Position numbers and translations under genes: made by a program | Notes under the pieces: generated by a model | Database searches by the model: none | The model's input: the letters and a program-made list of their open reading frames with translations, nothing else | What the model was told of the DNA's origin: nothing | Source: Paraglaciecola hydrolytica | GTDB lineage: Bacteria; Pseudomonadota; Gammaproteobacteria; Enterobacterales; Alteromonadaceae | Reading direction: 5' to 3' | Length of the DNA stretch: 64,000 nt | Assembly (NCBI RefSeq): GCF_001565895.1 | Contig: NZ_LSNE01000006.1 | Location: 252,965-316,964 of the forward strand | In this document: positions 2,766-21,917 of the stretch, piece by piece | How positions within the stretch are numbered: position 1 is the stretch's first letter | Layout: every line of letters starts with the position of its first letter

Positions 2766-3109
2766 ATCTATACCTTGTAGTTATGGTGTTTTAACTGAAT
2801 ACCAATTTGATTTGTTTACTACCTGCAGTTAACGTTTCTGGCAGGCTTTGTCCAAGAATATAACAATTTTTTAGCAAAGAGCAGATTAAACCCCCATGGC
2901 TCGACATTAATTATGTGTTAGCATCTTTTTGCTTAACTTGTATTTACTATTTGTTGCATGGATAACGTTCGAACGGCAACATATTAATGAATATGGAAGA
3001 TAAACAGGTCTTGGTTATTTAAAACCGTATTGACTAGCGTTACACTTAGCTTAATTCGATAAACTTTGCGCAACTGATTGATTTGTTGTGATTTAGAACA
3101 GGTAAATAC
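2766..3109. other. Intergenic region between divergent peptidase and HDOD genes
   Basis: AT-rich stretch that must hold the promoters of both divergent genes. TTGACT at 3030-3035 is a possible -35 for the HDOD gene but no convincing -10 sits at proper spacing. Nothing else recognised. Confidence 0.5.
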
Positions 3110-3946
3110 ATGTCTACAGAAAATGCTTTGCTGACAATATTGATAGAAAAGATCAATAACGATACCTTGGTTTTACCCACCTTGCCGGCAGTGGCTTTAA
3201 AAGTCAGAAAGGCAGCAGATGATCCCGATATCAACCTTAATGACATGGCAGATGTGATTGGACAAGATCCTTCACTTAGTGCGCGCATGATTAAAATTTC
3301 AAACAGTGCTTATTTAGGGCGTTCCGTTAAAGTAACCTCTACTACCCAAGCTGTCACACGCATTGGTTTACGCCAGATTAAAAATATTGCAACCGCATTG
3401 GCGATGGAGCAATTATTTGTATCCAAAAATGACATAGTTAAAGCGTATATGGAGCAGATTTGGTCTGACACAGTTGAAATTGTGGCAAGTTCCATGGCGG
3501 TATTACAAATTCATACTAAAGCGACTAAAAACCGTGCACTGAATTTAGATTCAATTATGTTGGCGGCGTTAGTGGCAAATATTGGTAGTTTACCGGTACT
3601 AACTGAAGCTGAGCGTCATGCTGATGTGTTTGGTAATCCAACCTTTTTGGATGTGGCGATCAGCAAGCTATCTGGCAAGATCGGCGAAAGCATAATGCAA
3701 GTGTGGGGTTTTGAGCCTGAGTTCATCATAGTAGCAAAGAGCTGGCGTGATCATAGTGTACAAACCGATGCTATCTCTTATTTAGATATAGTGCGTTTGG
3801 GCGCAGTGCTGTGTGGCAAATATGATAGTCGTAAAGATGCTTTGTTTGCCAACGCATTGGAAAAGAAAATTGTGCCTAGCTTGTCGTTGTTGTTATCCGA
3901 TGAGTTTGATGAATATCGTGCTCACGCCAAACAAATTTTTGGCTAA
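3110..3946 (+). CDS. HDOD domain signalling protein
   Basis: A 278-residue soluble protein made almost entirely of an HDOD domain, an HD-related output module found in bacterial signalling proteins and usually lacking catalytic residues. The opening LPTLPAVALKVRKAADDPD and the QDPSLSARMIKISNSAYLG stretch (about residues 22-72) are the family hallmark. No receiver, GGDEF or EAL domain is attached. The chosen ATG follows AACAGGTAAATAC, a modest ribosome site. It is monocistronic, convergent with rdgC. Target unknown; related proteins influence motility and chemotaxis, but nothing here shows that directly. Confidence 0.88.
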   Translation: MSTENALLTILIEKINNDTLVLPTLPAVALKVRKAADDPDINLNDMADVIGQDPSLSARMIKISNSAYLGRSVKVTSTTQAVTRIGLRQIKNIATALAMEQLFVSKNDIVKAYMEQIWSDTVEIVASSMAVLQIHTKATKNRALNLDSIMLAALVANIGSLPVLTEAERHADVFGNPTFLDVAISKLSGKIGESIMQVWGFEPEFIIVAKSWRDHSVQTDAISYLDIVRLGAVLCGKYDSRKDALFANALEKKIVPSLSLLLSDEFDEYRAHAKQIFG

Positions 3947-10964: not shown

Positions 10965-13652
10965 ATGAATAGTCAACCTAGTCTCAAAAAAATAGCACTT
11001 GCTGTGAGCATGGCAATATTGGCTACATCCAATGCGGCACTAGCTCAAGAGCAAGATGATAAAGTCCTCGATGAAGTTGTTACAACAGGCTCACGTTTAC
11101 AAGGTAGTGCTTCGGCGGTTATAGAAGAGCGTAAAAATCAAGCTTTTGTGGCAGATATACTCGGAGCTGAACAATTATCTCGCACCGGCGACAGTGATGC
11201 CGCATCGGCCTTAAGGCGTGTAACGGGTTTAACCCTAGTAGATGGTAAGTTCATTTATGTACGTGGTTTGGGTGAGCGATATTCTAGTGCCAGATTAAAC
11301 GGTGCAGCTATACCCAGTCCAGATTTAACCCGTAATGTACTGCCTTTAGATATTATTCCATCAAGTATTATTGAAAGTTTAGCCGTACAAAAAGCCTATT
11401 CACCGTCCATGCCTGCAGCGTTTGGTGGTGGCAGTATTGATATACGTACCAAAACCGTCCCAGCAGAATTTACCGCAGGGATAGAGTTGGGAGCAGGTTT
11501 CGATACATCAGCAAGGGATGGTAATACCTACAATCGTGAATCCAGTAGCATTCCTCAAGGGTTACAGGACGCCATCGTCTTGTATCGCGGTGATTTTTCA
11601 ACGGGTAAGATTATTACTAAAAATAACTTAGTGGATAGCGAAACCGCGACACGTTCACAACAAGCTATAGCCATTAATAATCAGTTATTAGAGTCTTTAC
11701 CGCGTAACTTTGCTCTGCAAGAAGAGTCATTAGACCCCGCCTACAATGTTAAAGCACATATAGGTAATAGCATTGATGAAGAATGGTTGGGGGGAACCTT
11801 AGGTTTCTTATTGTCAGCGTCTTATGATAATAGCTGGGATGCTGCCGATAAACGCACTGCAGTTATTGCTCAAAATATTGATGAAAACTGTGCTACCGAA
11901 CTTAATACCCTAGAAGATGCAGCTGCCTCGTGTTTTAACACCGTCAAAGACAGTACAACGACTACACAAAACGAGCGTTATAACGGCGTATTGAATGTGG
12001 GGTATAAATTAGGTGCACATCAAGTGTCGTACACCAATTTGTATTTAGCCGACAATGAAGATGAGTCAGAAGTATCGTTATTACAAGCTCCGGCAGGTAG
12101 TACGGTTTATACCATCGTCAGTACCGGCAGGGCTAATCGCAGCCATGAGTTTAACTACGAAGAACGTGTCCTCAAGGTATCGCAGTTTGTTGGTAAACAT
12201 ACCTTTTTGGATTACGCAGGTTTAGGTGCCGATTGGCAATATACCCGTTCACATGCCAGCACTGACATTCCAACCAATGTAGAATTTAAGTTCAGAGATG
12301 ACTATCAAGCAGGTCAATTATTCTCTTCGTCTATTACTGGTGATGATAACCGAGTGTTGTTTTCATATACGAATATGGATGACAGGGTAAACTCCTATGG
12401 TGGTAATTTGTCACTGCCGTTAACCTTGGGTGATTTCGACTTAGAATTTAAAGCGGGTTATGATTTTTCTGACCGTGCCCGTACTTATAATACTTCTAGT
12501 TTTGCGGTTAATAATGAGACCGGCTCGCAGATTGTCATTAACGATGGTAGTCAGTCTCCTTTAACTAACGGTGCTTATTTAACGGATGCCTTTATAGAAG
12601 GTCAACGTATCTTGGTTGACTTTAATGAACCTACTGCCCCTGATGCTGATGACTATTTAGCGGCGCAAAAAGTTGCCGCCGGTTACGGTATGTTTGATGT
12701 TTTTTATAAAGGCACCTGGCGCGTTAGCGGTGGTTTGCGTTATGAAGATTTCAAACAAACGTCGATAGGTACCTCTAGTTTGATTTTTAGTCAGCAAGAT
12801 CTCGATATCTATTATGATCCGACTAAAATTGAAGCCGGTAGCATTCTTGCCGATGATCTTTATCCAGCATTATCATTTACTTATATTGGCGGTGAAGATT
12901 ATCAAATTCGTCTTGGTTATGGCGAAACGATAGTACGTCCCGATTTACGTGAAGTTGTACCTGTCGCCTATTATGATCCATTAACCGATATCCGTACCTT
13001 TGGGCGTGTTGGTTTGCAGAGTAGCCCGATCAAAAACTATGACCTGCGTTTTGAACGTTACTTTTCTAATGGTGATAACTATTCTATAGCTGCATTTTAT
13101 AAAGATATTACCGCGCCAATCGAAACCGTATTGCGTGTTGGTGATGAAGACTATTCAGCGACTTTTATCAATGGAGAGTCAGCCGAAGTCTATGGTATGG
13201 AATTTGAGTGGTTACATGATTTGAATTATGTCGCCAGCGGTTTTTTTACCTCGGGTAATATTACTTTAAGTAAATCGGAAGCTGTTATTGATGAAGCCTT
13301 TGCAGGCAGTTTGGCTAATGCAACTAAACCTATGACAGGCCATTCTGAATACGTGGTTAATTTACAACTTAACTATGACTCTGAAAATGGTGAACACTCT
13401 AGTTCTTTGGTTTATAACGTGTTTGGTGAAAGGATCTTAGCGGCCGGATTAGTAGGCAGTGACGATGCTTATGAGCAACCTTTCCATTCATTAGATGCGG
13501 TATATACCTATTATCCAAACTTTAATTCAACGATTAAATTTAAAGTTAAAAACATCTTAGGTGAAGACCAAGAAGTGACTCAGTCAGAGGTCATTGTTCG
13601 AGCCAAAGAAGTGGGTACTTCATTTAGCGTGAGTTACAACTACGCATTTTAG
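10965..13652 (+). CDS. TonB-dependent outer-membrane receptor
   Basis: Outer-membrane active transporter of 895 residues. A cleavable signal ends near ALAQ; the TonB-box-like segment LDEVVTTGSR follows at about residues 34-43. The plug domain (about 45-170) contains YVRGLGERYSSARLNGAAIP and AFGGGSIDIRTK. The rest is beta-barrel with alternating strands and ends in an aromatic residue (YNYAF), as outer-membrane barrels do. Placement after phoBR and before the TonB operon, with Pho-box-like sites on both sides, suggests uptake of a phosphorus compound rather than iron; that is inference. Expression probably depends on read-through from the lipoprotein gene. Confidence 0.94.
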   Translation: MNSQPSLKKIALAVSMAILATSNAALAQEQDDKVLDEVVTTGSRLQGSASAVIEERKNQAFVADILGAEQLSRTGDSDAASALRRVTGLTLVDGKFIYVRGLGERYSSARLNGAAIPSPDLTRNVLPLDIIPSSIIESLAVQKAYSPSMPAAFGGGSIDIRTKTVPAEFTAGIELGAGFDTSARDGNTYNRESSSIPQGLQDAIVLYRGDFSTGKIITKNNLVDSETATRSQQAIAINNQLLESLPRNFALQEESLDPAYNVKAHIGNSIDEEWLGGTLGFLLSASYDNSWDAADKRTAVIAQNIDENCATELNTLEDAAASCFNTVKDSTTTTQNERYNGVLNVGYKLGAHQVSYTNLYLADNEDESEVSLLQAPAGSTVYTIVSTGRANRSHEFNYEERVLKVSQFVGKHTFLDYAGLGADWQYTRSHASTDIPTNVEFKFRDDYQAGQLFSSSITGDDNRVLFSYTNMDDRVNSYGGNLSLPLTLGDFDLEFKAGYDFSDRARTYNTSSFAVNNETGSQIVINDGSQSPLTNGAYLTDAFIEGQRILVDFNEPTAPDADDYLAAQKVAAGYGMFDVFYKGTWRVSGGLRYEDFKQTSIGTSSLIFSQQDLDIYYDPTKIEAGSILADDLYPALSFTYIGGEDYQIRLGYGETIVRPDLREVVPVAYYDPLTDIRTFGRVGLQSSPIKNYDLRFERYFSNGDNYSIAAFYKDITAPIETVLRVGDEDYSATFINGESAEVYGMEFEWLHDLNYVASGFFTSGNITLSKSEAVIDEAFAGSLANATKPMTGHSEYVVNLQLNYDSENGEHSSSLVYNVFGERILAAGLVGSDDAYEQPFHSLDAVYTYYPNFNSTIKFKVKNILGEDQEVTQSEVIVRAKEVGTSFSVSYNYAF

Positions 13653-13988: not shown

Positions 13989-14774
13989 ATGAAACGAGAA
14001 TTCTCGACGAGCTTACGCTTAACCGCAGTTGCCGCTACAGTGATTGCGGGTTTGACCGTTACCACTAGCTATGCGCAGGAAGATAAAGATCTTAAACCTG
14101 CAGTTAAAACCGCCACACAAATCAATGAATCAGCTGCAAACTCACAGGTCAAAATCAATACTATTACCGATCAAATTGATAGCAAACTGCAACAGTTCAA
14201 AACCATCAATAAAGAGATTGATGGTTTAGACATATATAACAACCAATTGCGCAAACAAATCGATAGCCAAATGAAAGAGATGGCAGCACTAAATGCCTCT
14301 ATTGATGATGTTAGTGTTATCGAACGTCAAATCACCCCATTAATGATGCGCATGATTGAAGGCCTTGAGCAATTTGTTGCTTTAGATGTGCCGTTTTTGG
14401 CAGAAGAGCGCAATCAACGTATCACTAGTTTAAAAGACATGATGGACAGAGCGGATATCGCTCCTTCTGAAAAATTCCGCCGAGTGATGGAAGCCTATCA
14501 AGTTGAGATGGATTACGGCCGTACATTAGAAGCCTATGCCGGTTTGCATACCATCGATGGCCAAGAGCGCAACGTTGACTTTTTACGGGTAGGTCGCACC
14601 GCTTTGATTTACCAAACACGTGATGCCGCATTGCAAGGTAGCTGGAACAAACAAAGCGGACAGTGGGAAGCACTGCCGTCGAGCTATCGTACGCAAGTCA
14701 CTAAAGGGTTGCGTATGGCCAAAAAACAACTGGCGCCAGATTTATTAATGTTACCTGTTGCGATCACAGATTAA
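13989..14774 (+). CDS. DUF3450 periplasmic coiled-coil protein of the TonB operon
   Basis: Exported 261-residue protein. The signal peptide ends near SYAQ; then comes a coiled coil (about 45-105) and a conserved C-terminal part with DYGRTLEAY and VDFLRVGRTALIYQT, the DUF3450 hallmark. In Vibrio cholerae a DUF3450 protein heads the TonB2 operon in the same order as here. Its role is thought to be support of the TtpC/ExbB2/ExbD2/TonB2 complex in the periplasm. First gene of the six-gene operon; ttpC starts 12 bases after it. A Pho box lies upstream. Confidence 0.92.
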   Translation: MKREFSTSLRLTAVAATVIAGLTVTTSYAQEDKDLKPAVKTATQINESAANSQVKINTITDQIDSKLQQFKTINKEIDGLDIYNNQLRKQIDSQMKEMAALNASIDDVSVIERQITPLMMRMIEGLEQFVALDVPFLAEERNQRITSLKDMMDRADIAPSEKFRRVMEAYQVEMDYGRTLEAYAGLHTIDGQERNVDFLRVGRTALIYQTRDAALQGSWNKQSGQWEALPSSYRTQVTKGLRMAKKQLAPDLLMLPVAITD

Positions 14775-14786
14775 GGACTGAATACA

Positions 14787-16166
14787 ATGAATAAGTTTAT
14801 TAAACAACTCAGTCTGGTAGTTATCTTAAGTGGCTTTTCCACCTTAAGTTTGGCCGCAGACGATAACAAAGCCCTCGATTTAGATGCGCTGTTAAAACAA
14901 TTAGAGCAAGGTAAGTTTCAACAAACTCAGCAAAATACCGCGCGCGAAAAAGAGTTTAGCCAAAAACGTGCTGAGCAGGATCAATTGCTAAAAGCTGCAG
15001 GCTCTGAGCGTGACGCTGCTTTAAAAACGTCAGAAAAGCTTGAAACCGAATTTGAAAACAACGAAATCAAGTTAGCCGGTTTAAATGACGCCATGACTAA
15101 ACGTTTAGGCTCCTTAAAAGAATTGTTTGGGGTATTACAGCAAGTAGCGGGTGATACTAAAAGCAAATTTCAAAACTCGATTATCTCTGCACAAATCCCT
15201 GGTCGAGCCGAGTTTTTAAATGACTTAGCCCAGTCGATGGGCTCTAGCTCAAAGTTAGCTTCTATCGACGAAATCGAACGTGTTTGGTTTGAAATGCAAC
15301 GTGAGATGACTGAATCCGGCAAGGTGACCACCTTTACTACTGACGTAATTGAAGCGGGTGGCCAAAAAGTTAACAAACAAGTTTTACGTGTAGGGCCTTT
15401 TGCTTTAGCGGCTGACGGTAAATACCTAGATTACGACGGTGTCACACAAACGGTTGAAGAATTAATTCGTCAACCAGCCAATCGTTATGGCGACAGTGCT
15501 TTGGCCTTACAACAGTCTAAAGGTGACTTAGTTGAGTTTGGTTTGGATCCAACGGGTGGCTCGATTCTTAAATTATTGGTTCAAGCACCTAGCTTGCAAG
15601 AGCGTGTTGATCAAGGCGGCTTGGTGGGTTACATCATCCTTATTGTTGGTGGCATTGCCTTACTCTTAGCCTTAGAGCGTTTAATTAGCCTGACTATCGT
15701 TAAAGCTAAGGTCGACAAACAATTAAAATCTGACGACTTTAAAGACAGCAACCCCTTGGGCCGCGTGATGAAGGTCAGAGATACCTATCCACAAGCGGAT
15801 ACGGAAGCCCTAGAGTTACATTTAACCGAAGCGATTTTAGGTGAGATACCTAAGCTAGGTCGTAACTTAACCATCATTAAAATCATCTCTGTCGTTGCAC
15901 CTCTGATGGGTTTGTTAGGCACAGTGACAGGTATGATCAATACCTTCCAAGCGATTACCTTATTTGGTACCGGCGACCCTAAATTAATGGCGGGTGGTAT
16001 TTCTACGGCCTTGGTAACGACGGTACTGGGCTTGGTTGTCGCTATCCCTGCCACTTTACTGTACGCCATGCTCAATACTCGCAGTAAAAACATCGTATTC
16101 ATTTTGCAAGAACAAGCGGCTGGTGTGATTGCCGAGCGTGCTGAAAAAACGGCGGTTAGAGGCTAA
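14787..16166 (+). CDS. ttpC: TtpC-like long MotA/TolQ/ExbB proton-channel protein
   Basis: Inner-membrane component of Vibrio-type TonB2 systems, 459 residues. A signal peptide (ending near SLAA) is followed by a long periplasmic coiled-coil domain (about 27-270), then a TolQ/ExbB core: one helix near 275-300 and two more near 360-440 with the conserved PLMGLLGTVTGMI and STALVTTVLGLVVAIPA motifs. Known TtpC is essential for TonB2-dependent uptake in Vibrio. Here it is the second gene of the operon, five bases from exbB. The symbol rests on architecture and gene order. Confidence 0.9.
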   Translation: MNKFIKQLSLVVILSGFSTLSLAADDNKALDLDALLKQLEQGKFQQTQQNTAREKEFSQKRAEQDQLLKAAGSERDAALKTSEKLETEFENNEIKLAGLNDAMTKRLGSLKELFGVLQQVAGDTKSKFQNSIISAQIPGRAEFLNDLAQSMGSSSKLASIDEIERVWFEMQREMTESGKVTTFTTDVIEAGGQKVNKQVLRVGPFALAADGKYLDYDGVTQTVEELIRQPANRYGDSALALQQSKGDLVEFGLDPTGGSILKLLVQAPSLQERVDQGGLVGYIILIVGGIALLLALERLISLTIVKAKVDKQLKSDDFKDSNPLGRVMKVRDTYPQADTEALELHLTEAILGEIPKLGRNLTIIKIISVVAPLMGLLGTVTGMINTFQAITLFGTGDPKLMAGGISTALVTTVLGLVVAIPATLLYAMLNTRSKNIVFILQEQAAGVIAERAEKTAVRG

Positions 16167-16171
16167 GCATC

Positions 16172-16729
16172 ATGGTTGAATTTTTCGAAGCCATTCGCGA
16201 TTTTACTGAAACGGGCGGACAAGTTCTGCTCGTTATCGGCGGCTTGATTTTTGTCATGTGGATACTGATTTTAGAGCGCGTTTTATATGTGTTCATTTGG
16301 CATAAACAATACAAAAACCACATGATCGCTAAGTGGAATGCCCGTCAGGATCGCAGCTCATGGAATGCCGAACAAATTCGCCAGGCGATGATTTCGCGGG
16401 TGAGCTTAAAGCTCGGCAGCGGCATTACGGTTATTCAAGCCTTAGTGGCCTTGTGTCCCTTATTAGGTTTGATGGGCACGGTAACCGGCATGATTGAAGT
16501 CTTTGATGTAATGGCAATTTCCGGCTCAGGTAATGCCCGTTCAATGGCTTCTGGGGTGTCTAAAGCGACTATCCCTACGATGGCCGGAATGGTCGGGGCC
16601 TTATCTGGGGTATTTGCTTCAACGTGGCTAGCCCGAACCAATAAATCTGAGCGAACCCATATTGAAGATGCCATGAGCATGGACAGATGCATTAAGTCTG
16701 TCAAAGCACAGCCAATAGTAGCCAAATAG
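16172..16729 (+). CDS. exbB: ExbB-type proton channel (ExbB2)
   Basis: Inner-membrane proton channel of 185 residues that energises TonB with ExbD. One helix near residues 16-36 and two near 85-115 and 130-155, with the family motif CPLLGLMGTVTGMIEVF and the following ATIPTMAGMVGAL. The short form matches ExbB2 rather than the longer E. coli ExbB. Lies between ttpC and exbD in the Vibrio TonB2 order. Confidence 0.94.
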   Translation: MVEFFEAIRDFTETGGQVLLVIGGLIFVMWILILERVLYVFIWHKQYKNHMIAKWNARQDRSSWNAEQIRQAMISRVSLKLGSGITVIQALVALCPLLGLMGTVTGMIEVFDVMAISGSGNARSMASGVSKATIPTMAGMVGALSGVFASTWLARTNKSERTHIEDAMSMDRCIKSVKAQPIVAK

Positions 16730-16757
16730 CCTAAGCGAACATTATAAAGAGAACTGT

Positions 16758-17165
16758 ATGAAACAACATTTTCAAAACCTGATGGACGAAGAAGAAGCCG
16801 CAATTGACATGACACCCATGCTGGACGTGGTGTTTATCATGTTGATCTTTTTTATCGTTACCGCCTCTTTTGTTAAAGAAGCAGGCATTGACGTTAACCG
16901 TCCAGAAGCCGCTACCGCAGTGAAAAAAGACCGCGCTAACATTTTAGTGGCTATCAGCGATAAAGGCGAAATTTGGATCAATAAACGTCAAGTGGATGTG
17001 CGTGCAGTGCAAGCCAATATTGAACGTCTACATGCTGAAAACCCGCAAGGCACAGTGGTGATCCAGGCAGACAAAAAATCCACTACCGAAACCTTAATTA
17101 AGGTAATGGATGCGTCGCGTGCTGCTGGTATTACTGATGTTTCCATCGCAGCCCAAGAGCCCTAG
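16758..17165 (+). CDS. exbD: ExbD-type biopolymer transport protein (ExbD2)
   Basis: 135-residue single-pass membrane protein. The helix starts in DMTPMLDVVFIMLIFFIV, carrying the conserved Asp that takes part in proton translocation, followed by a periplasmic domain with VAISDKGEIWINKRQV and VVIQADK. It pairs with ExbB to drive TonB. The stop is three bases from tonB. Confidence 0.95.
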   Translation: MKQHFQNLMDEEEAAIDMTPMLDVVFIMLIFFIVTASFVKEAGIDVNRPEAATAVKKDRANILVAISDKGEIWINKRQVDVRAVQANIERLHAENPQGTVVIQADKKSTTETLIKVMDASRAAGITDVSIAAQEP

Positions 17166-17168
17166 AAC

Positions 17169-17777
17169 ATGCCTAGATATATCATTGCCATTATTCTTGC
17201 CGCTGCAGTGACCTTGGGATTGTTTTTTCTGATGCAATCCCTGATTAAAAGTGGTGGCAGTGCCTTAACTGATGCACCCAAGGGCAGTGTGCTGGACTTT
17301 GTGCGAGTCAAAAAAGACGAAGCGATAGAGAAAAAAGATCGCAAACCACAAAAGCCGTCCAAGCCAGAGCAACAACCACCACAAATGCAACAACCCCAGA
17401 TGGACTCACCCAGCCCAGACAATGCCACCAGTGGTATGGACTTTGGAGCCGATGTGACCGCTGATTTGTCTTTAGATGGTGGTTTAGCTTTGGAATCGGG
17501 TGACGGTGAATATCTACCTATTGTACGAGTAGCTGCAGTTTATCCTCGCCGAGCGTTACAACGAGGCATAGAAGGCTTTGTAGATGTGGAATTTATCGTA
17601 ACTAAACAAGGTTCGGTACGTGATCCAAAAGTAATACAAGCATCACCGGAAGGCATTTTTGAACAAGCCGCCATGGATGCCACCTTAAAATACAAATATA
17701 AACCCCGGGTAGTGAATGGCGAAGCGATGGAAGTTGCTGGTGTTGAAGTACGGGTTACCTTTGAGATTGGAGGATAA
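17169..17777 (+). CDS. tonB: TonB energy transducer (TonB2 type)
   Basis: 202-residue energy transducer linking the inner-membrane proton channel to outer-membrane receptors. N-terminal anchor (about 4-26), Pro/Gln/Lys-rich linker (about 55-85), and a C-terminal TonB domain with YPRRALQRGIEGFVDVEFIV and YKPRVVNGEAM, ending in VRVTFEIGG. The short linker is typical of TonB2. It lies three bases after exbD and is followed by the TPR gene with a strong GGAGG site at its stop. Confidence 0.95.
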   Translation: MPRYIIAIILAAAVTLGLFFLMQSLIKSGGSALTDAPKGSVLDFVRVKKDEAIEKKDRKPQKPSKPEQQPPQMQQPQMDSPSPDNATSGMDFGADVTADLSLDGGLALESGDGEYLPIVRVAAVYPRRALQRGIEGFVDVEFIVTKQGSVRDPKVIQASPEGIFEQAAMDATLKYKYKPRVVNGEAMEVAGVEVRVTFEIGG

Positions 17778-17780
17778 AAT

Positions 17781-19145
17781 ATGAGTCAGCAATTTAATGT
17801 AAAAACCACCATGCGTGCCTTGTCATTAGTATTAGGTTTGAGTTCAACCTTGTTGGCGCTTACCTATGCTAGCAATACTATGGCTGAAGAAACCGTCAGT
17901 GAACGCAAAACCCAGCGAGTACCTACCTTGCGTGCCAAGGTATATGACCAATTGTCTCGGGCTCAGACTTTTGCTGATGCGGGTGACAGCAAACAAGCCT
18001 TTGCAGTACTTGATGAAGTAAAAGGCAAAGCCAGTTCAATGAACAGTTATGAATTGGCCATGATGTATAACTTTTATGGTTTTATTAATTACAACCTAGA
18101 ACAATTTGACCAAGCCATCGCAGCCTTTGAACAAGTGGTGCAGCAACAGCCTATTCCTACTTCTTTTGAGCAGGCGACATTATTTAGCCTTGCACAACTG
18201 CACATGATGCGTGGCAACTATGATAAAACCATAGTATTTATTGAAAAGTGGGAAACAATTCAAAAAGAAGTAACACCTGGCGCCGAAATTCCTGCTAAAA
18301 ATCTCGTGCTTAAAGCGCAGGCTATGTACCAGAAACAAGATTATGCCAAGGCCTCAACTTATATTAATCAAGCAGTAGAGCAGCAAGAAAATAGCAAAGA
18401 AGGTTATCAGGTTGATGAAAACTGGTATGTCTTGCAACGTGCGGTTTATTACGAACTTAAACAACCTGAGCAAGTTAAAAATGTATTGTTGAAACTGGTT
18501 AAACAATATGAAAAACCTTCATATTGGATCCAGCTGGCCGGTATGTATGGCGAGTTAGGTGATGAAAAGCAACAGTTGGCTTATATGGAAATTGCCTATC
18601 AATTGGATTACATCGCCACTGGTTCAGACATCTTCAACTTGTCTCAACTTTATTATTATCACCAAATGCCGTTTAAGGCTGCCATGTTAATGGAAAGTGC
18701 CATCAAACAAGGTAAGTTGCCTGAAGATCAGCGTAATCTAACTTTCTTGGCCCAAGCTTGGAGTTTTGCTAAAGAAAATGACAAGGCCGTACCTGTGATG
18801 CTTGCCGCTGCCAAACTGTCTAAAGACGGTGAACTTGACGCTCAATTGGCGCAAATTTATCTTAATTTAGAGCTGTGGGAAAAGGCTATTACTGCCTCTG
18901 AAACGGCGCTGCAAAAAGGCGGCTTACGTAACGAAGGTACAGTGCATTTAGTCTTGGGTATGGCTCACTTTAATGTGGGTGATTACAACCTTGCGTTAAA
19001 TGAACTGGCTCTAGCTGAAAAAGACAAAGGTAGTCAGGGAATGGCTAAACAATGGCTTAAGTTTGTACAAGCAGAAAAGCTTAGTAATGAGCGTTTACAA
19101 GCTCAAGTCGCACCAAGTTCTGCCCATGATCGATATCTTCCATGA
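17781..19145 (+). CDS. TPR-repeat protein of the TonB operon
   Basis: Exported 454-residue protein with a signal-like N-terminus (about 1-35, ending NTMAEE) and multiple tetratricopeptide repeats along its length, for instance MMYNFYGFINYNLEQFDQAI and LVLGMAHFNVGDYNLALNEL. A TPR gene ends the homologous Vibrio TonB2 operon too. Role likely structural, in the periplasm, possibly contacting TonB or DUF3450; not demonstrated by the sequence. Translation starts after GGAGGATAAAAT, overlapping the end of tonB. Followed by a strong terminator. Confidence 0.9.
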   Translation: MSQQFNVKTTMRALSLVLGLSSTLLALTYASNTMAEETVSERKTQRVPTLRAKVYDQLSRAQTFADAGDSKQAFAVLDEVKGKASSMNSYELAMMYNFYGFINYNLEQFDQAIAAFEQVVQQQPIPTSFEQATLFSLAQLHMMRGNYDKTIVFIEKWETIQKEVTPGAEIPAKNLVLKAQAMYQKQDYAKASTYINQAVEQQENSKEGYQVDENWYVLQRAVYYELKQPEQVKNVLLKLVKQYEKPSYWIQLAGMYGELGDEKQQLAYMEIAYQLDYIATGSDIFNLSQLYYYHQMPFKAAMLMESAIKQGKLPEDQRNLTFLAQAWSFAKENDKAVPVMLAAAKLSKDGELDAQLAQIYLNLELWEKAITASETALQKGGLRNEGTVHLVLGMAHFNVGDYNLALNELALAEKDKGSQGMAKQWLKFVQAEKLSNERLQAQVAPSSAHDRYLP

Positions 19146-19170: not shown

Positions 19171-19200
19171 AAAAATGCAGCTAGAAAGCTGCATTTTTTT
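19171..19200. terminator. Terminator of the TonB operon
   Basis: Perfect 12-bp stem AAAAATGCAGCT / AGCTGCATTTTT with a 4-base loop and further T residues. It can also serve the small minus-strand gene that converges here. Confidence 0.93.
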
Positions 19201-19217: not shown

Positions 19218-19424
19218 CTAATTTCTTCTCAGCCAAGCGGCTGTCAGCGCCTTGCAGCTACACTTCCAGCCACAATTCTTTTGACAAAAATACCTTTCGT
19301 CTGACTGAAAACACATTGGCGGTTTTTTGTTGGTATTTATCTCTGTCAGCGGAATAGCCCTACTAACATAAGCAGAGCGAATAACTACATGATTATTATC
19401 ACTCACTTTTTCAGACTTCATCAT
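19218..19424 (-). CDS. Small Cys-rich protein, unrecognised
   Basis: Possible 68-residue gene. Its ATG is preceded by a perfect GGAGG with 5-base spacing, one of the best ribosome sites in the window, which argues it is real. The C-terminal half carries five cysteines in a C-x8-C-x3-C-x3-C-x-C pattern (CFQSDERYFCQKNCGWKCSC) and ends in LTAAWLRRN. No signal peptide is evident. The pattern suggests metal binding or a disulfide-bonded peptide, but I cannot name a family. It stands alone between the TonB operon terminator and a divergent hybrid kinase. Confidence 0.65.
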   Translation of the reverse strand: MMKSEKVSDNNHVVIRSAYVSRAIPLTEINTNKKPPMCFQSDERYFCQKNCGWKCSCKALTAAWLRRN

Positions 19425-19790
19425 AATATCCTCCGTTGGTTTGAAGTTGATATAGAGTTTGGGGTCATAAATAAAATCAGCAGGGACTAAAAGTGTAGGC
19501 TCAAATAATGAAAAATCTATGACAAAAGAGAGTTTTTTTACTCTTCTGTGGTTAAAGGGATTTTGTACTTAAATTGTGCATCTTATTGGCGACTATATTG
19601 TCAGAAATGTTTACGTTTTTAATAAAGTGGCTATTAATTGAGGTAGAGTCGAGTATTTAATCAAGTCAATAAATGGCGTGTGACTAACTCACCTATGTGA
19701 CAACGCATAGGGCAAGATCACCATTTGTTCTTTAGGTCTCATATATAAGATGATATTTTTAATCCCATCTGTTTATTGCCGTGGTTTTAT
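19425..19790. other. Intergenic region between small ORF and hybrid kinase
   Basis: AT-rich, divergent promoter region for the small Cys-rich gene and the hybrid kinase. A short AGAGT/ACTCT hairpin lies near 19526-19541. No further gene or named site seen. Confidence 0.5.
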
Positions 19791-21917
19791 ATGCAAGCAA
19801 ACACCCCAAAGTTAAGCCATTCAGAGATTAGAAATGGTTTAATCAATACCGTTATTGGTAGCGCAGCATTATTAGTGGTATTTGCGGCGGCTGCATCATT
19901 GTTACGTATGCAAATCATAGGTTTTCAACCAGTAATGGTTGTTCATCTCATATTATCAGTGCTTATTTTAACATTGTTCATATGCAGAACCCGCATTCCC
20001 CTAAACATTCGGGCCAACATTATTTGTCTTTTCTTTTTTATTGCAGGCATAGGGGGACTGGTTTCGTTTGGATTGGCGGGTGCAGGGACCTTATTATTGT
20101 TAGGCGCCTGTATCTTTACCAGTTTATTGGTCAGCATGCGCTTTGCGGTTATTTATGCGTCTATCGGTGCTGCGGTGATAGCTACCATGATGTTATTAGC
20201 CATGATGGGTATGCTTAGTTTTACAGTGAGTCTGGGGGAGTATTTATTGTCTCCTGTTGCTTGGCTAAACAACTTGATTACATACAGTTATGTGGTGACG
20301 ATAACTTTATTGATCATGCAACGATTTTCTGGCTACCTGAATAGTCTAGCGGCTTCCCAAGCTCAAATTATTAAATATCAAACTAAACAAATTAATACGT
20401 CAGAATCTATTTTGGAAGCGGTGGTCAATTGTCTTCCGTATGGGATTTTGTGGAAAGATACCCAGCTTCGTTACCTAGGGGCAAATAACTATTATTTGCA
20501 AGATGTAAAAATTAGAGATGCCACTAAAATCATAGGTAAAACAGATTACGAGTTATTCCCAAGGGAGTTGGTACAAAAGTATGTAGAAATCGATAAAAAA
20601 TTGCTGACATCAACGGATAAAATTGAAAGTTATACAGAACAACATCGAGATAAAGAAGGCAATGCGGTTTATCTTTCTACCAGCCGACAAAGGCTATGCT
20701 CAAAAGATGGCGAGTTACTTGGGGTACTTAGCGCTTATCATGATATCACCGCCCGAACATTAATGGAGCAAGAGTTGCGAGATTCTAAGCTTTTGGCTGA
20801 AGAGGCCAGTTTGGCCAAATCTCAGTTTCTAGCCAATATGTCCCACGAAATTCGTACACCACTAAATGGTATCTTAGGTTTAATCGAGTTGAGTTTATCG
20901 ACAGAGTTAAATAAAACCCAGCTTGAATATTTAAGTAAAGCCAGTCTTTCCGCTAAAACCTTACGCAATATTATCAATGATATTTTGGATATTTCTAAAA
21001 TAGAAGCGGGGCAAATGGAACTAGAAAGTATCCCCTTTGACATGCATACCATTGTCCAGAATATCGAAAATCAATTTGCTCATATCGCCGAAACTAAAGG
21101 CATTGAGTTTGTCGTGCAATACCATGGACCTCAGCCCCTTTGGCTGCTTGGTGATCCCACACGTTTATTACAAATATTAATGAACCTGTGCGCCAACAGC
21201 ATCAAATTCACTGAGCAAGGTCAGGTATTATTTGAATGTAAGGCCAGCATTGAACAACAACAGGTCAAGCTACAGTTAAAAATAAGTGATACTGGTATAG
21301 GTATGGATGACAAGGCTCTGCCTTTGTTGTTTAACAAATTTACTCAAATTGATAGCTCAACAAGTCGTAAGTTCGGTGGTACGGGCTTAGGTTTATCTAT
21401 TGTAAAGGCCTTGGTGGATTTGATGTCGGGTAGCATCCAAGTAAGCAGTCAATTGGCCAAGGGCAGTTGTTTTGACGTTAATATTCAACTCCCTCTTGGT
21501 GAAGAAAAAAGCACCTCAAATAGTCAAGACGAGCTAGTCGATTTTAGTGGTAAAAAAATTCTGTTGGTAGAAGATAATCAAATTAACCGTTTGATTGTCA
21601 ATGAATTATTAAACTCAGTTGGGGCGACGATCGTTAATGCAGAAGATGGGCAAATCGCCTTGGATGAACTGGCCAGTCAAGCGTTTGATTTGGTGTTAAT
21701 GGATATCCAAATGCCGGTAATGGATGGCTGTACCGCAATTGGCAAAATTAAGGCTCAAGCTAAATATGCCGAGTTACCCATCATTGCGTTAACGGCCAAC
21801 GCCATGCAACACGACATCGAACTGTATAAAAAGCTGGGTTTTTGCGCCCATGTGGCCAAACCCTTTGATTTTGAACTTTTATTACAGGTGATTAAAAAGC
21901 ACTTGCCAGAGGCATAA
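19791..21917 (+). CDS. Hybrid sensor histidine kinase with PAS and receiver domains
   Basis: Inner-membrane hybrid kinase, 708 residues from the ATG of MQANTPKLSH; an in-frame TTG 15 bases earlier is an alternative and neither has a clear ribosome site. About five or six helices (20-180), a PAS domain (about 205-320), HisKA with H352 in ANMSHEIRTPLNG, ATPase with NLCANSIKFT and FGGTGLGLSIVKAL, and a C-terminal receiver with D638 in LMDIQMPVMDG. No HPt domain or regulator is adjacent, so the output partner is elsewhere. The membrane part is a MASE-like integral sensor with unknown signal. Confidence 0.92.
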   Translation: MQANTPKLSHSEIRNGLINTVIGSAALLVVFAAAASLLRMQIIGFQPVMVVHLILSVLILTLFICRTRIPLNIRANIICLFFFIAGIGGLVSFGLAGAGTLLLLGACIFTSLLVSMRFAVIYASIGAAVIATMMLLAMMGMLSFTVSLGEYLLSPVAWLNNLITYSYVVTITLLIMQRFSGYLNSLAASQAQIIKYQTKQINTSESILEAVVNCLPYGILWKDTQLRYLGANNYYLQDVKIRDATKIIGKTDYELFPRELVQKYVEIDKKLLTSTDKIESYTEQHRDKEGNAVYLSTSRQRLCSKDGELLGVLSAYHDITARTLMEQELRDSKLLAEEASLAKSQFLANMSHEIRTPLNGILGLIELSLSTELNKTQLEYLSKASLSAKTLRNIINDILDISKIEAGQMELESIPFDMHTIVQNIENQFAHIAETKGIEFVVQYHGPQPLWLLGDPTRLLQILMNLCANSIKFTEQGQVLFECKASIEQQQVKLQLKISDTGIGMDDKALPLLFNKFTQIDSSTSRKFGGTGLGLSIVKALVDLMSGSIQVSSQLAKGSCFDVNIQLPLGEEKSTSNSQDELVDFSGKKILLVEDNQINRLIVNELLNSVGATIVNAEDGQIALDELASQAFDLVLMDIQMPVMDGCTAIGKIKAQAKYAELPIIALTANAMQHDIELYKKLGFCAHVAKPFDFELLLQVIKKHLPEA

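Follow-up and report, generated by a model that had tools for sequence, protein, structure and literature searches.

WhiB-like proteins are actinobacterial regulators of carbon and redox genes in which cysteines are arranged as C-x2-C-x5-C, the C-x5-C pair being located near a helix and aromatic residues being found by the cluster. In the CCCH zinc finger, the pattern is C-x8-C-x5-C-x3-H. A different arrangement, C-x8-C-x3/4-C-x5-C, often followed by L-x-A-x-W, is the motif of the Cys4 family treated here, of which no description was found in a literature search covering titles and the openings of abstracts. One member of this family is encoded in a stretch of 64,000 nucleotides from Paraglaciecola hydrolytica (contig NZ_LSNE01000006.1), hereafter called the window. 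By sequence comparison, the C-terminal ~30 residues of this protein are shown to form a module common to a widespread bacterial family.

The gene for this 68-residue protein, MMKSEKV...CFQSDERYFCQKNCGWKCSCKALTAAWLRRN, is located at 19218..19424 on the minus strand, with an ATG at 19424 and a stop codon ending at 19218. The upstream letters of the same strand are ...CCAACGGAGGATATT-ATG-ATG: two start codons stand in tandem, and a GGAGG ribosome-binding site, read directly from the letters at 19430..19434 (minus strand), precedes the first by 5 nt and the second by 8 nt. The start codon is preceded, at a distance of ~530 bases, by the sole promoter-like match of a scan (minus strand, 19980-19952); shuffled sequences averaged 3.5 such matches. 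Beyond the stop codon, a consensus scan found a terminator-like hairpin, AAAAATGCAGCTAGAAAGCTGCATTTTT, at 19171..19198, which is listed for the plus strand and is placed between the small gene and a convergent TPR gene. Because A and T runs flank this hairpin, both strands could be served by it. Three Rfam matches fall over the hairpin beside the gene, all far below the gathering score, and an RNA element in place of the gene was rejected.

The convergent gene encodes a TPR protein by Pfam (17781..19145, plus strand) and is the last gene of a TonB operon spanning 13989-19145, which consists of DUF3450, MotA/ExbB, a second ExbB-like gene (16172-16729, assigned by eye), ExbD, TonB, and TPR. Upstream of the operon, a gene at 10965-13652 has the look of a TonB-dependent receptor when read by eye. 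On the other flank of the small gene, at 19776-21917, a hybrid kinase is encoded, in which Pfam recognizes MASE11, an N-terminal membrane sensor domain, together with PAS, HisKA, HATPase, and receiver domains.

A homologue is found at the same locus in a second Paraglaciecola species (genome G018), where it converges on the TPR gene as in the window and the next gene beyond differs. Between the two species, the 32-codon core gives a pS of 0.94, with silent sites saturated, and a pN of 0.33, a combination indicating strong purifying selection and therefore a coding frame. The short frame is a real, selected protein gene: the original prediction of a small cysteine-rich gene behind GGAGG holds, the frame, the ribosome site, and the selection being in agreement. 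Coding in the antisense or another frame was also considered for the core DNA of the two species and rejected: of the five alternative frames, four are interrupted by stops in each of the two, and in the fifth the two are little alike by eye.

The gene is rare among close relatives. A genus search gave matches in two of 22 genomes, namely the window's own and G018, and a search of close relatives at E 0.001 matched 2/196, the own genome included. The search for homologues among close relatives, which had been suggested along with the prediction, was therefore rewarded in G018 but nowhere else in that set, other orders being richer. G005 has a TPR protein that is 79% identical, and the small frame was not found in the 1.5 kb downstream of the gene for it. 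Across the order, weak matches at E ≤ 0.1 occur in 65/394 genomes, and among the 30 matches whose loci were obtained, a four-Cys core is found at the match only in the two Paraglaciecola genomes; the other 28 were discarded, none having the four-Cys pattern at the match and six having it elsewhere in the locus (11 were also read by eye). In another genome (G001), two overlapping pieces (L022 and L024) are found in place of a whole TPR gene in the TonB operon, possibly as the result of a frameshift or an assembly error.

When a two-row profile was used with short patterns against a species-genome collection, three loci were obtained: the G018 record, a locus (L064) from a Methylomonas MAG, which is a true distant relative, and a false one, a match in Quisquiliibacterium (L065) that sits in a cupin-like gene by eye and was rejected. 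Family-wide matches of profile P0002 at E 0.002-0.04, which contain stops or cover a part only, were left out of the counts. In the Methylomonas order, which is methanotrophic, a three-row profile matched 41 of 151 genomes at E ≤ 1e-3; 16 of these 41 have more than one place (two or three), and at all 58 places the match is free of internal stops. In the window's class, a 28-row core profile (A5), whose rows were selected with the four-Cys pattern, matched 24/369 genomes at E ≤ 1e-3, own included, a count that keeps three weaker matches without the motif on first reading (L126, L129, and L131, the last of which reads C-x8-C-x4-C-x3-C). In the phylum, a profile of the SAP-like type (A9) matched 53/219 genomes at the same threshold: the window's own genome, a second one from the same class, and a further 51 from outside that class, of which 49 belong to one family, this figure being the number of matched genomes among the 219 searched across the phylum and not a share of that family. 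Many of the phylum-wide matches contain a stop, which in L224, L229, and L244 comes within a few residues after the motif, at the protein end. Profile A9 recovers the window protein, which had no part in its construction, at E 4.0e-6, and profile A5, which includes the core of this protein, does so at E 2.0e-13.

Relatives are also carried by plasmids of Leptospirillum (E 2e-12), Megamonas (E 0.01), and Nitrosomonas (E 0.06), which were accepted after reading of the sequences; a plasmid search with the L064 protein gave no match, and one plasmid relaxase match is at chance level. The Leptospirillum ferrooxidans plasmid p49879.2 (NC_006909.1) has a SAP-like Cys4 gene at positions 3001-3177 of its locus (L133), where the PLSDB table lists one feature only, a hypothetical protein encoded by the opposite strand. 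Searches of phages gave no match and those of viral contigs no confirmed relative, and an origin from a phage or a plasmid was rejected. A tree of 62 cores, from which L171 (wrong frame) was dropped, has too few columns to place the window protein.

The conserved core of the window protein covers residues 36-68 (19221..19319, minus strand) and reads C38-x8-C47-x3-C51-x5-C57-x2-L-x-A-x-W64 in core alignment A5. Its cysteines are at 38, 47, 51, 55, and 57 (C-x8-C-x3-C-x3-C-x-C) and its tryptophans at 53 and 64, and the family motif is matched by the cysteines at 38, 47, 51, and 57 followed by L60, A62, and W64. The cysteine pattern proposed originally is therefore conserved in part: Cys 38, 47, 51, and 57 are kept in relatives, but Cys55 is outside the motif and is Ser in G018, the closest relative. 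A looser four-Cys pattern is present near the match in 81/83 loci found by HMM (order, 30/30; class, 21/23; phylum, 30/30), a count in which the last spacing was fixed at five and the pattern of L129 may be there by chance. When a last spacing of 4-6 was allowed, it was five in each of 62 cores, which had been chosen by the four-Cys pattern with L171 left out. The commonest spacings in the order and class sets are C-x8-C-x4-C-x5-C and C-x8-C-x3-C-x5-C, and the first spacing is six in 22/30 of the phylum-wide loci. The tryptophans had been described as conserved-looking, and indeed a Trp in C-x-W after the third Cys is found in 47 of the 62 cores, and L-x-A-x-W or a close variant after the last Cys in 49. 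An AlphaFold model made from three sequences (pLDDT 55) suggests a hairpin at 38-47 and a helix at 54-67 and carries little weight, its quality being too low to establish the fold or to reveal a metal site; a search of solved structures gave four matches only, at E 1.8 and worse.

Scans of the window protein and of several relatives with Pfam and NCBIfam gave no model at cut-off over the Cys part, in line with the earlier view that the family is an unrecognized one. What lies ahead of the module differs among members. DUF2934 (PF11154) is above the Pfam cut-off in two of six relatives scanned, both of the Methylomonas order; it precedes the Cys4 module, covering residues 42-74 of a 162-aa protein with the Cys module outside, and a Nitrosomonas plasmid protein annotated as DUF2934 also bears the module. 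In several relatives, the N-terminal segment gives matches to Rho_N (PF07498, E 0.014-0.027) and SAP (PF02037, E 0.065-0.16), all below the Pfam cut-offs, and the SAP/Rho_N-like segment can be aligned across 15 rows. The window protein has neither DUF2934 nor a SAP/Rho_N match in Pfam, and by eye both it and its nearest relatives are without the SAP-like segment. The free-standing and SAP-like types are related, since their Cys modules align with an hhalign probability of 96% (E 2.9e-9). Several other weak matches were set aside as chance: MIOS_a-sol in the window protein, Rex (E 0.088) in the L064 protein, an arginyltransferase (E 0.0038, below cut-off) in one relative, and two PHROGs for the window protein (E 0.17, the best, and 0.27).

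Genes around the family members give a first clue to function: several relatives adjoin genes for glycogen synthesis or breakdown. Sixty family loci were mapped together with flanks of at most 6 kb, shorter at contig ends; these are 40 of 58 places from the order search and 20 of 23 from the class search, 81 places in all with the window excluded. Neighbors were named by Pfam on eight representatives and then by blastp from these. Among the 40 loci of the Methylomonas order, alpha-glucan phosphorylase directly adjoins the family gene in six (L135, L137, L138, L139, L141, and L143), glycogen synthase in one (L147), and phosphoketolase in one (L157). Among the 20 class loci, GlgA is found within 6 kb in seven, GlgP in one, and Gnd with Zwf in three, the union being nine loci in seven families. 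None of 20 control stretches, 12 kb each and positioned by hand at round coordinates of the contigs concerned in 15 of the 20 genomes, has these genes, and the most recurrent protein cluster there occurs in three; since the neighbor classes were picked after the clusters had been seen and related genomes are not independent, the contrast of 9/20 with 0/20 is suggestive and is given no p-value. By pairwise score, four cores at 61% identity are nearest to the window protein after G018, and three of them adjoin alpha-glucan phosphorylase. No glycogen, pentose-phosphate, or phosphoketolase gene is seen in 42 of the 60 maps, and of the 30 loci from the phylum-wide search, for which the flanks covered were 1.5 kb, a single one showed any representative, namely phosphorylase.

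The gene had been said to stand alone, which is true of the window but not of a fair share of the relatives, which adjoin glycogen genes. In the window's own genome, the single phosphorylase match is on contig C5 and the single glycogen synthase match on C3, and the small gene is on C6. Both enzymes are present in the three other genomes tested in which the small gene was not found (G004, G005, and G012), so that glycogen metabolism does not depend on it. Other neighbors recur as well. The family gene directly adjoins queC of the queuosine pathway six times in the Methylomonas order (L146, L148, L149, L152, L156, and L164), QueC having been checked by Pfam in one representative, and Tol-Pal-like genes, named by eye, are near several of the queC-adjoining loci. 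Genes that look by eye like those for MerR, copper ATPase, or multicopper oxidase adjoin longer SAP-like members (L153, L159, L166, and L168).

The best overall reading, which we hold tentatively and would stop a little short of calling probable, is that the protein works in the cytoplasm as a regulator or adaptor with a Cys4 metal site, serving storage-carbon metabolism in many lineages. It would be cytoplasmic, as no signal sequence is apparent in the window protein by eye. The four cysteines, lying within ~20 residues, would bind one metal centre, with Zn2+ slightly favored over an Fe-S cluster; the zinc or iron binding raised with the original prediction is thus a plausible one. A role as a small regulator or adaptor is proposed because in relatives the module is joined to nucleic-acid-type segments and recurs near storage-carbon genes. 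The SAP/Rho_N-like segment ahead of the module in many relatives suggests nucleic-acid binding, while the free-standing form of the window may act through protein contacts or through weak contacts with RNA or DNA. In many lineages, the job of the module would be tied to glycogen as storage carbon. For the path that leads from the metal through a partner to a target, we rely on inference.

Two other functions deserve to be weighed against this reading, and each seems rather unlikely. One is that the protein holds an Fe-S cluster instead of zinc and works as a redox or oxygen sensor like the actinobacterial WhiB-like proteins. The four conserved cysteines with C-x5-C recall the WhiB spacing, aromatic residues surround the motif, and a few relatives have the MerR-, copper-ATPase-, or multicopper-oxidase-like neighbors mentioned above; a Rieske_4 match in the L064 protein (residues 28-59, E 0.024) also touches the Cys part, although it is below cut-off and was judged a chance match. 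However, the spacing as a whole is unlike C-x2-C-x5-C, and WhiB (PF02467) is absent both from the hits of the window protein up to E 10 and from those of the relatives scanned. The other is a zinc-structured protein that binds RNA or DNA in general, through SAP/Rho_N helices and a zinc module, so that the adjacency to glycogen genes would be inherited synteny with no functional content. The segment aligned in 15 rows, the weak Rho_N and SAP matches, and the scattered contexts, QueC among them, are all consistent with such a protein, but the lack of the segment in the window protein and its nearest relatives is not, and across seven families the adjacent glycogen or pentose genes are not the same, which argues against mere synteny.

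It may also be asked whether the gene does anything in Paraglaciecola at present. A leftover, newly acquired or in the course of being lost in the genus, would account for its presence in two of 22 genomes and for the missing frame after the TPR gene of G005; the open frame, the ribosome site, and the strong constraint between the two species that carry it make this explanation highly improbable. A regulator or adaptor with a metal site remains the reading that we prefer. A bolder form of it, which we consider quite unlikely, is that these are tiny metal- or redox-sensing regulators of a new family, by which glycogen storage is adjusted in several lineages of proteobacteria, the free-standing form of the window being the sensor only and the SAP-like form a sensor with a nucleic-acid-binding segment.

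In the Methylomonas order the family is a common one, and 49 genomes of a single family outside the window's class have it as well, yet in the members scanned its Cys part is left uncovered by Pfam and NCBIfam models at their cut-offs. The genes are short and can be overlooked, as exemplified by the Leptospirillum plasmid, for which just one gene, on the opposite strand, is listed at that position. If the association with glycogen genes is functional, the family would be a newly recognized component of carbon storage, methanotrophs being one example.

Compared with the described systems, the family shares some features with each and differs in others. SAP and Rho_N are small helical domains to which the N-terminal part of several members can be aligned weakly, whereas all of these matches stay below cut-off, none is in the window protein, and the Cys4 part is outside the models. 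In two proteins of the Methylomonas order, DUF2934 is fused ahead of the Cys4 module, but the domain excludes the Cys module and is not present in the window protein. With the CCCH zinc finger, the family has in common a first spacing of eight residues; in contrast, its last ligand is a Cys after five residues, with no His, and no Pfam hit to such a finger was obtained. The WhiB-like regulators are comparable in their small size, four conserved cysteines, and C-x5-C pair, while the remaining cysteines are spaced otherwise and Pfam gives no WhiB hit. In its general plan, the family resembles other small metal-site regulators.
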